From contig NC_019792.1 of the NCBI RefSeq assembly GCF_000230715.2, forward strand, positions 1,674,001 through 1,738,000: a stretch of DNA of 64,000 nt, in the 5' to 3' direction. Positions within the stretch are counted from its first letter, which is position 1. Every line of letters starts with the position of its first letter. Under the pieces are notes generated by a model. It did not search any database, was not told where the DNA came from, and saw nothing but the letters and a program-made list of their open reading frames with translations. Both the position numbers and the translations under genes were made by a program. Origin of the DNA: Natronobacterium gregoryi SP2. GTDB taxonomy: Archaea; Halobacteriota; Halobacteria; Halobacteriales; Natrialbaceae. This document shows, in pieces, positions 40,434-42,740 of the stretch.

Positions 40434-41285
40434 ATGGAGGAATACCCAGCCATCCCGTCGGTCGACGCTGCACCAAACAGTTTCTTCGAGGAGGGCCACC
40501 TGTGGCTCCTCGAGAAGATCGACGGCGCGCACCTCCGTTTTCAGCTTCAGCAGTCGGGGCTCGTGTGTTTCGGCGATCGAAACCAGGTCTACGACGATCC
40601 CGACGACGTACCCGATCCCTATCAGCACGTGGTCCGCCACGTTCGAGCGAACCTCGACCGCGAGGCGCTCCGAAACGCCGTCGACGATGTCGAGGACGTC
40701 GTCTTCTTCGGTGAAGCGACTCACCGCCAAACGATCGACTACGACTGGGATCGTATCCCGTCGTTTCTCGGCTTCGACGTCTGGTCGGCTGACGCTGGAA
40801 CGTTCCGCCCGCCCGACGCAGTGCAGGCGATCTTCGACGGAATCGGGCTCGAGTCGGTGAACGTCTTCGAACGGGAACGCCGCGCTCGAGATTTCGATCC
40901 CGATTCGTACGCTATCCCACAGTCGGCGTGGGACGACGGACCGGCCGCAGGCGTCGTGATTCGGGACAAACGGGGGCGACGTGCGAAGCTCGTCCATCCC
41001 GACGCCGGTCGTGCCGACGGACCGGCCCCGGTCGACGTGCCGGCGGAAGAACTGGCAGCGAGATACGCGACCCGGGACCGACTCGAAAAAATTGCATCGA
41101 GACTCGAGGACGACCGTCGACCCGTGACGTTCGAAACGCTCTACGAGCGCGTGCTCGAGGATATCCTTCGGGAGGCTCACCGCCGACTCGGTCACGGCGA
41201 GAGCAGCGTCGAGATGGACGAGTTTCGGTCCGAGGTCGGTGCGCTCACGCGGGCGTTCCTCGAGGATCGGTCGAACGGGACGTAA
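40434..41285 (+). CDS. RNA ligase family protein
   Basis: A 283-residue nucleotidyltransferase-fold protein. Motif I reads LEKIDGAHLRF with the candidate AMP-lysine at K28. Motif III is VFFGEATH near 90, motif IV AAGVVIRDK near 180 and motif V RRAKLVHP just after. These match the RNA_ligase (Rnl2-like) family; a C-terminal helical domain of about 90 residues follows. It would join or seal RNA ends. Start only two bases after the rio1 stop indicates one transcript and possible coupling. Substrates are unknown; tRNA or rRNA repair is an inference. Confidence 0.82.
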   Translation: MEEYPAIPSVDAAPNSFFEEGHLWLLEKIDGAHLRFQLQQSGLVCFGDRNQVYDDPDDVPDPYQHVVRHVRANLDREALRNAVDDVEDVVFFGEATHRQTIDYDWDRIPSFLGFDVWSADAGTFRPPDAVQAIFDGIGLESVNVFERERRARDFDPDSYAIPQSAWDDGPAAGVVIRDKRGRRAKLVHPDAGRADGPAPVDVPAEELAARYATRDRLEKIASRLEDDRRPVTFETLYERVLEDILREAHRRLGHGESSVEMDEFRSEVGALTRAFLEDRSNGT

Positions 41286-41308
41286 CAGTACTCGAGGGGC
41301 AAAACACT

Positions 41309-41316
41309 CTTTATCG
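41309..41316 (+). promoter_or_regulatory. TATA-like box for the trpS leader transcript
   Basis: CTTTATCG is centred 26 bases before the ATG of the leader ORF at 41338. This predicts a transcript starting at or near that ATG, with roughly 165 bases ahead of the trpS start. Confidence 0.55.
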
Positions 41317-41337
41317 ATCCGAACTGACAGCTACTCG

Positions 41338-41421
41338 ATGACGTCCGCTCTCGAGTGGTCGTGGCGCTGGCAGACTCCCTCGAGAGCGGACAGTGTCGTC
41401 GTGGCGGGCGACGTGGCCTAA
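41338..41421 (+). CDS. Putative Trp-rich leader peptide of trpS (27 aa)
   Basis: A 27-codon ORF beginning MTSALEWSWRWQTPS and ending at TAA 41419-41421. Three of its residues 7-11 are Trp (UGG at 41356, 41362 and 41368). It starts where a leaderless transcript from the TATA-like box would start, and it ends 83 bases before tryptophanyl-tRNA synthetase. Together these suggest a leader peptide sensing charged tRNA-Trp. It is not a recognised protein family. Chance is possible because the ORF is short. Confidence 0.5.
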   Translation: MTSALEWSWRWQTPSRADSVVVAGDVA

Positions 41422-41463
41422 CCCGCGGCCGTGGCGGCGGGCGCTCCCTCCGTTCGTTTTCTG
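41344..41463 (+). promoter_or_regulatory. Candidate attenuator region of trpS
   Basis: A perfect 12-bp stem (TCCGCTCTCGAG at 41344-41355 with 41379-41390) has the three Trp codons of the leader ORF in its 23-nt loop. After the leader stop a GC-rich hairpin CCCGC/GCGGG (41422-41441) is followed by a T-rich tract GTTCGTTTTCT (41453-41463), as in an intrinsic terminator. Ribosome stalling at the Trp codons would block the first stem. The switch itself is inferred. Confidence 0.45.
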
Positions 41464-41504
41464 ACTGTACCGCCGTCCAGCCACTGCAGTCGACTCCAAC
41501 ACGA

Positions 41505-42740
41505 ATGCCAAACCCTACCGACGCGACCGACAGCACCGATACCGAAACGAACCCCGAAGCGAGCACGACCGACGCGGACGAGTTCACCGTCACCCCCTAC
41601 GCCGTCTCCGGCGAGGTCGACTACGAGAAACTGCTCGAACGCTTCGGCGCGACCTCTCTCACGGACGACCAGCTCGACCGGTTTCCCGACCACCCGATGA
41701 TCCGTCGCCGGACGTTCTACGCCGGCCGGGACGTGAACGAGTATCTCGAGGCCGCCGAATCGGACGACCCCCACGCTATTGTGACGGGCCGCGGACCGTC
41801 GGGGCCGATGCACCTCGGCCACGTCCTGTCGCTGTACCTCGCGAGGCGCTTTCAACGAGAGACGGGCACGACGGTCTACGTTCCGCTGTCCGACGACGAG
41901 AAGTACCTCGCGAAAGATCAGTCGTTCGCGTCGATCGGTGGGCACACGCGCGACAACCTCCGCGACGTTCTCGCCGTCGGCTTCGATCCCGAAAACACGC
42001 GAATCGTGATCGACACCGCCGACGCCGACGTGATCTACCCGATCGCGGTTCGACTCGCCAACTACCTCACGCCGGCCACCGTCGAAGCCGTCTACGGCCA
42101 GCAGGACACGGTCGGGTTACAGTTCTATCCGGCCGTGCAGGCGACCCACCTGCTGTTGCCGCAACTCGTCGCGGGACGACAGCCGACGCTCGTCCCCATC
42201 GCCGTCGACCAGGACCCACACGTGCGGGTCTGTCGCGACGTCGCCGCGAAGGAGTCGCTTCCGGTCGAGAAACCGGGTGCCCTGCTCGGGCGCTTCCTGC
42301 CGAGCCTCGAGGGGCCGGGCAAGATGAGTTCCTCCGGGGACGCGCCGTCGATCGAACTCACCGACGATCCAGAGACCGTCGCGGCGACGGTCAACGAACA
42401 CGCCTACACCGGCGGTCGGGCGACCCTCGAGGAACACCGCGAGAAGGGCGGCGATCCGTCCGTCGACATCCCGTTCCAGTACCTCCGCTTTTTCTTCGAG
42501 GAGGACGACGCCGCACTCGAGCGGATCGCCCAGCGGTATCGAGCGGGCGAGTTGCTCAGCGGCGACCTGAAGGAACTCGCGATCGACCGGATCACCGACT
42601 TCCTGGCGGCCCACCAGCGCCGGCGCGACGCGCTGGGTGAGCTCGAGGACGAACTCGAGCCGTTCCGACTCGCCAATGCCGAGCGTTGCCGGGCACTCGA
42701 GCGGGCTGGCGTGCCGTCCGTTTCTGGGAGGGTGAGGTGA
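41505..42740 (+). CDS. trpS: Tryptophan--tRNA ligase
   Basis: A 411-residue class Ic synthetase charging tRNA-Trp. The HIGH-type motif is GPMHLGHVL with H103-H106. The KMSKS-type motif is KMSSS at about K273, in GPGKMSSSGDAPSIELTDDP. The archaeal/eukaryotic form is supported by GLQFYPAVQATHLLLPQ and VPIAVDQDPH. A 25-residue acidic N-terminal tail precedes the body. The ATG at 41505 is chosen over the open frame from 41355, which runs through the leader hairpin. Haloarchaea often have two trpS paralogues; this may be one of them. Confidence 0.95.
   Translation: MPNPTDATDSTDTETNPEASTTDADEFTVTPYAVSGEVDYEKLLERFGATSLTDDQLDRFPDHPMIRRRTFYAGRDVNEYLEAAESDDPHAIVTGRGPSGPMHLGHVLSLYLARRFQRETGTTVYVPLSDDEKYLAKDQSFASIGGHTRDNLRDVLAVGFDPENTRIVIDTADADVIYPIAVRLANYLTPATVEAVYGQQDTVGLQFYPAVQATHLLLPQLVAGRQPTLVPIAVDQDPHVRVCRDVAAKESLPVEKPGALLGRFLPSLEGPGKMSSSGDAPSIELTDDPETVAATVNEHAYTGGRATLEEHREKGGDPSVDIPFQYLRFFFEEDDAALERIAQRYRAGELLSGDLKELAIDRITDFLAAHQRRRDALGELEDELEPFRLANAERCRALERAGVPSVSGRVR

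Follow-up and report, generated by a model that had tools for sequence, protein, structure and literature searches.

A candidate leader-peptide attenuator preceding an accessory tryptophanyl-tRNA synthetase gene across haloarchaea

The window, that is, the whole stretch of DNA analysed here, comprises 64,000 nucleotides of Natronobacterium gregoryi SP2 (NC_019792.1, positions 1,674,001-1,738,000, forward strand), and window coordinates are used throughout. An intergenic region (41286-41504) separates the stop codon of the upstream gene, at 41285, from the ATG of a trpS gene, at 41505. This region and the gene that follows it hold the features listed below.

41300-41305 and 41310-41314, forward strand: BRE-like CAAAAC and TATA-like box TTTAT, with A-rich and T-rich blocks aligned in 98 relatives
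41338-41421, forward strand: leader ORF of 27 codons, MTSALEWSWRWQTPSRADSVVVAGDVA, with stop codon TAA at 41419-41421 and homologues in the family and the class
41343-41355, forward strand: 5' arm of hairpin P1 (region 1)
41356-41370, forward strand: three Trp codons, at 41356, 41362 and 41368, inside the P1 loop
41379-41391, forward strand: 3' arm of P1 (region 2), whose GAGCGGA (41384-41390) can alternatively pair with region 4
41392-41445, forward strand: P2, a GC-rich hairpin abutting P1 and enclosing the leader stop codon; it shows covariation and folds at -30.8 kcal/mol
41449-41463, forward strand: region 4, consisting of TCCGTTC (41449-41455, the complement to region 2) and then GTTTTCTG; candidate termination site
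41505-42740, forward strand: trpS, encoding an accessory-type (TrpRS-II) tryptophan--tRNA ligase of 411 aa (NCBIfam NF008927)

The trpS product scores 561.9 bits against NCBIfam NF008927, over the cut-off. A second, longer TrpRS is encoded in the same genome (G000:C1:1367439), with about 34% identity to the trpS product over the first half; the name TrpRS-II is used here for the accessory type of the window trpS, and canonical TrpRS for the other type. TrpRS-II is absent from most of the Haloferax genomes examined. The Haloferax mediterranei plasmid pHME505 carries a TrpRS-II gene with its leader (L345), flanked by integrase and transposase genes, and TrpRS-II is also present on other haloarchaeal plasmids.

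An earlier note on this DNA had proposed a leader-peptide attenuator in front of trpS, building on a TATA-like box with an ATG at leaderless distance and on a 27-codon ORF with three Trp codons in five residues. Both are indeed present: the TATA-like box lies about 26 nt 5' of the leader ATG, and the ORF was verified at 41338-41421. The promoter spacing is kept in relatives: in 98 of them, the positions -36 to -34 relative to the start codon are rich in A, and the positions -30 to -26 are rich in T. Judged from this pattern, the BRE and TATA elements lie at a distance compatible with leaderless initiation of the leader; in Haloferax volcanii, 72% of the protein-coding transcripts are leaderless (PMC4983044). 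A bacterial promoter and terminator scan of the region was set aside as uninformative for an archaeon.

The same note asked for chance to be ruled out, the ORF being short. That an ORF and a hairpin should arise fortuitously between two genes in GC-rich DNA would agree with the folding energy of the whole region, which is no more stable than that of shuffles (z -0.81). However, when 41286-41504 was shuffled 3,000 times with its dinucleotides preserved, 0.03% of the shuffles held an ORF with three Trp within five residues, 0.2% held a perfect stem of at least 12 bp with a loop of up to 60 nt, and none held both such an ORF and a stem of at least 12 bp. These shuffles speak against chance, as do the conservation and covariation found across the class, and the comparative data already refute this explanation, to which we assign a negligible probability.

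The stem looping out the Trp codons had been given as perfect and 12 bp long; it is perfect (100% complementary) and its 23-nt loop does hold all three codons, but its length is 13 bp. Overlapping the leader codons, P1 is thus the kind of first hairpin that an attenuator demands, one that a stalled ribosome could keep from forming. A second GC hairpin had been placed after the ORF stop; such a hairpin exists, but the conserved P2 contains the stop codon. Across 102 sequences, 88.7% of the P1 and P2 cells are paired, versus at most 42% when slid, with two-sided changes at 28 of the 34 pairs. Covariation in these sequences amounts to 0.337, versus 0.152 ± 0.006 when shuffled and at most 0.082 when slid, bearing in mind that relatedness among the sequences inflates all shuffle tests (P1, P2 and P4). 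This alignment was fitted to a covariance model; a MAFFT alignment of 47 sequences, which was not, leads to the same verdict (0.224 versus 0.141 ± 0.007). Compensatory changes in the stems are exemplified by GTCCGCTCTC:GAGAGCGGAC, GTCCGCTCCC:GGGAGCGGAC and GTCCACTTCCC:GGGAAGTGGAC.

With the window TrpRS as query, TrpRS-II was found in 79 of 125 family genomes, at 83 loci. The leader is present at 81 of these loci, in full length at 77 and shortened to a form with one Trp (VSTSPETDERRWR*) at four second-copy or divergent loci (G046b, G052b, G078 and G083b); relatives devoid of a Trp-rich ORF, named beforehand as the outcome that would tell against an attenuator, are therefore not the pattern found. 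As for the two remaining loci, G120b lacks a leader and the 5' end of G114 is unreadable. Three types of leader occur in the family: A, MTSALEW.WRW..PSRADSVVAAGDAA and its variants; B, MQSAPAWRWHEFSGADS...; and C, MVSTSHANCWRWHASREVDSIAV.

The covariance model R1, derived from 47 sequences of the family, matches the window at 130.7 bits, with no other convincing match in the window genome. Strong R1 matches extend to at least seven families beyond the window's own, hence at least eight haloarchaeal families, and nearly always lie before a TrpRS gene; in a phylum-wide sample, all 31 matches at E <= 1e-6 fell within the same order. At E <= 0.01, matches appear in 190 of 391 class genomes, which is an overcount (the true number is lower), because the weak matches inspected proved to be chance. 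With E about 0.05 to 1, those found in the genome of the window look like ordinary coding sequence with no leader or TrpRS adjoining; those inspected elsewhere (E about 5e-6 or worse) are coding-like and also without leader or TrpRS, and antisense matches reflect the palindromic P1. One scan of named haloarchaeal TrpRS-II loci (L178-L245) placed the element directly upstream in 65 of 68, including that of Halobacterium salinarum DSM 3754; the exceptions are L201, whose sequence is incomplete, and L221 (Saliphagus) and L237, without a detectable element. Among 100 aligned elements, 95 adjoin TrpRS-II and 5 adjoin canonical TrpRS. Altogether, the comparison of upstream regions that had been suggested as a check found the Trp codons, the leader frame, the promoter spacing, P1 and P2 conserved or covarying across the class Halobacteria, in support of the proposed leader-peptide attenuator.

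The leader is a short ORF rich in the codons for the amino acid of the gene that it would control, the next gene being that of TrpRS. Each of the 98 leaders read contains an in-frame Trp codon ahead of region 2, and 91 of them contain two or more; counted by frame, TGG occurs before region 2 218 times in the leader frame, versus 28 and 5 times in the others. The start codon is ATG in 86 leaders and GTG in 12. In one relative (L023, from G032), TGA replaces the second Trp codon and would terminate the leader within the P1 loop; its other parts are intact. In L151, L173, L175 and L205, the P1 stem itself includes the first Trp codon (GTCCGCTGGCG:CGCCAGCGGAC), which gives the same switch another geometry.

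The WRW and ADS residues are widely conserved in the leader peptides, and this conservation could be taken as the mark of a functional small protein or arrest peptide, with RNA folding as a secondary matter. The frame 3' of the Trp codons and the position of the stop vary, however: Halorussus leaders read region 2 in another frame (...WRWQTPGERTVS*; ...PGERTVS*), and an early stop in L093, L094 and L097 (again VSTSPETDERRWR*) yields a short form that ends before region 2, with P1 and P2 kept. The variable downstream frame and the short forms thus indicate that the Trp codons and the RNA are maintained, and not the peptide C-terminus. Considering also the compensatory changes in P1 and P2, a functional peptide appears very unlikely. 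The presence of UGG in a loop, in the manner of a specifier codon, also brings to mind a T-box-like element that binds tRNA directly and does not need translation. T-box riboswitches would share with the haloarchaeal element the response to tRNA charging and the control of aaRS genes; they bind tRNA directly, whereas a search of the region in Rfam gave no match, nor any to T-boxes at gathering or relaxed thresholds. Furthermore, UGG stays in frame within an ORF whose start and promoter spacing are conserved, something that a T-box would not need, and this explanation seems to us even harder to sustain than that of a functional peptide.

The tract following P2 is purine-poor, with 7.2 T in 22 nt versus 2.8 further on, and resembles region 1. 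It had been described as T-rich, a description that holds in part: it is conserved as a pyrimidine tract and the window has TTTT at 41457-41460, but TTTT is found within 35 nt in just 20% of 100 relatives, so that a strong U-tract terminator is not evident. The alternative helix between regions 2 and 4 (P4) has a best run with a mean of 7.9 bp, versus 3.9 bp for the next 25 nt, and runs shorter than 7 bp occur in 13 of 100 sequences. Its pairing score is 17.57, versus 13.66 for shuffled tracts, and the pairing of each region 2 with its own region 4 exceeded cross-pairing in 300 of 300 shuffles (16.91 ± 0.17). Pair counts are weaker, with 84.5% of the cells paired, versus at most 63.7% when slid, and 38 two-sided cells, versus 21 ± 5; the number of P4 pairs with two-sided changes is unexceptional, being reached in 73 of 500 shuffles. 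Compensatory cases include GAGAGCGG:TCGTTCTC replaced by GGAAGTGG:TCGCTTTC, and a change from C-G to T-A in L061.

When the window sequence is folded, P1+P2 is favoured (-56.1 kcal/mol, versus -42.6 kcal/mol for P4+P2), and when only the RNA beyond a ribosome placed on the third Trp codon is considered, the minimum is P4+P2. The same folding beyond the stalled ribosome in 98 relatives gives P4 in 95%, but in 86% when the tract is shuffled; the pyrimidine composition therefore explains much of the result, and folding of this kind is not discriminating. P1 and P4 would then be two mutually exclusive states sharing region 2, with moderate support for P4 from the aligned sequences, and P4 would provide, at that same moderate level, the exclusive alternative pairing of the 3' arm of the first hairpin that is proper to an attenuator.

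Taken together, the comparative sequence data lead us to propose, with a probability of about 80%, that this element is a cis-acting attenuator of trpS, sensing charged tRNA-Trp via the translation of the Trp-rich leader peptide. Transcription would begin at or near the leader start codon, and the ribosome would consequently load on a leaderless mRNA. With ample Trp-tRNA, the ribosome would pass the Trp codons, P1 would re-form behind it and P2 would form, leaving the tract after P2 single stranded, and most transcripts would end there. With scarce Trp-tRNA, the ribosome would stall on the Trp codons and cover region 1, while region 2, past its leading edge, would pair with region 4 on top of P2; the resulting P4 would hide the tract, and RNA polymerase would continue into trpS. 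A ribosome reaches about 15 nt beyond its P site; if its A site held a Trp codon, its leading edge would lie no further than the start of region 2, leaving P4 able to form but not P1. Two points of this scheme are inferred, namely which way the control runs and that its output is termination (intrinsic or by FttA/aCPSF1): since low Trp-tRNA should raise TrpRS, P4 is taken to be the permissive state, and termination is assigned to the free tract. Archaeal RNA polymerase needs no hairpin to terminate at U-rich stretches, and nascent RNA rich in U is cleaved by FttA/aCPSF1 (PMC8716108, PMC11616081); one hairpin tested in vivo in H. volcanii terminated 59% of transcripts (PMC7237163).

As the tract is pyrimidine-rich without a clear U-run, the same sensor could have another output, in which the leader ribosome and the P1/P4 switch would govern translation of trpS or stability of its mRNA, through re-initiation or cleavage of the tract. 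The weakness of the U-run, the short distance between the end of the element and the first in-frame ATG of the TrpRS gene (about 35 nt, median) and the preference of the nuclease FttA for U-rich RNA (PMC11616081) would all agree with such an output. Nevertheless, the trpS start codon is covered by neither P1 nor P4, and the stretch between region 4 and this ATG is poorly conserved; control of translation or stability is a possible output, if a somewhat unlikely one.

The natural signal might also be a TrpRS inhibitor or another translation poison instead of Trp starvation, with TrpRS-II as an inducible resistant copy, as in Streptomyces. We find this trigger improbable, even though in the window genome it is the accessory TrpRS that carries the element, the plasmid-borne TrpRS-II of Haloferax mediterranei sits between integrase and transposase genes, and in four genomes elements precede genes other than those of TrpRS, namely GNAT acetyltransferases in G132, G289 and G045 (L163, L165 and L170) and an ABC exporter in G328 (L157). 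Canonical TrpRS has the element in nine sampled genomes (G258, G185, G348, G377, G207, G273, G162, G193 and G230) in which TrpRS-II was not found, and its presence there speaks for ordinary homeostasis of Trp-tRNA. Of the four leaders before non-TrpRS genes, two are devoid of Trp codons and may therefore respond to some other stalling signal. In four family genomes without TrpRS-II (G025, G027, G038 and G045), no convincing element was found before canonical TrpRS.

The attenuator proposed here for trpS would share with E. coli trpL the Trp codons in a short ORF and a stalled ribosome that prevents stem 1:2. The E. coli trp attenuator controls biosynthesis and opposes a 2:3 antiterminator to a 3:4 terminator with poly-U, whereas the haloarchaeal P2 appears in both states and the controlled gene would be that of TrpRS. 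Attenuators of this logic have been predicted for trpS and leuS in Streptomyces, including S. avermitilis trpS2 (PMC1262725), and ribosome-mediated attenuation of an auxiliary TrpRS gene has been reported in this genus (Vecchione and Sello, 2010, as cited in PMC4787780). Bacterial aaRS attenuators (auxiliary trpS in Streptomyces; pheST in gamma-proteobacteria) have in common with the haloarchaeal leader the tandem cognate codons in a leader peptide and the alternative RNA pairings, to which the Streptomyces system adds the control of an accessory TrpRS gene. In contrast, the haloarchaeal leader would operate with archaeal transcription and translation machinery, its ORF would be leaderless, its Trp codons are located in the loop of the first hairpin, and its alternative helix would pair with the tract after the second hairpin instead of with a terminator stem, with no strong U-run.

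In H. volcanii, 16 uORFs have been listed in long 5'-UTRs with mapped starts (Babski et al., 2016; PMC4983044, Table 2). Among them are a uORF of 23 aa (2743 Da, pI 5.4) before HVO_A0127, a tryptophan--tRNA ligase gene, and one of 26 aa before the pheS gene HVO_2948, both presented there as small protein genes only, with no structure or regulation seen described (PMC4983044). The Haloferax leaders read in this analysis have 23 aa, and the HVO_A0127 uORF probably belongs to this leader family. No earlier report of archaeal leader-peptide attenuation was found in the open-access literature, where absence is not proof, and likewise nothing for HVO_A0127/trpS2.

The pheS genes display a comparable arrangement. 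In the genus of the window, pheS is preceded by a leader ending in Phe codons (...SGFGFFFR*), for example MASESRGRESVVSQQQQTRSGFGFFFR (L289, in the window genome, G000:C1); the observation covers the pheS loci L286-L290 and L316-L344. Among pheS loci sampled from several families, an upstream ORF with at least three Phe is present in 27 of 34, a few of these probably by chance. The 23 leaders with a GF.F or GFFF motif can be aligned and have in common a promoter-like T-tract, which is conserved, and two hairpins: the arms of the first change together (CGAATCCC:GGGATTCG, CGAACCCC:GGGGTTCG), and the second is a GC hairpin. Judging from these alignments, the pheS leader is probably a second attenuator, of analogous design and unrelated sequence.

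Leader-peptide attenuation is a textbook bacterial mechanism, and archaeal transcription and translation are thought to be coupled; we found no described archaeal regulator that exploits this coupling in such a way. The trpS and pheS leaders could represent the first ribosome-mediated attenuation in Archaea, by which leaderless leader peptides would control at least two aaRS (Trp and Phe), and antitermination would proceed by hiding a pyrimidine tract needed for archaeal termination (intrinsic or FttA), not by breaking a terminator stem. This broader proposal is tentative, and we would place it slightly below even odds. A class-wide system of this kind would imply that archaea evolved attenuation on their own, or that attenuation has a greater age than assumed. 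With culturable hosts such as Halobacterium salinarum and Haloferax mediterranei, a single reporter would make it possible to test coupling, leaderless initiation and archaeal termination.

Besides its paired arms, the second hairpin of the pheS leaders has a conserved internal loop, GGTGGA / CGAAACC, which could be a protein-binding motif.
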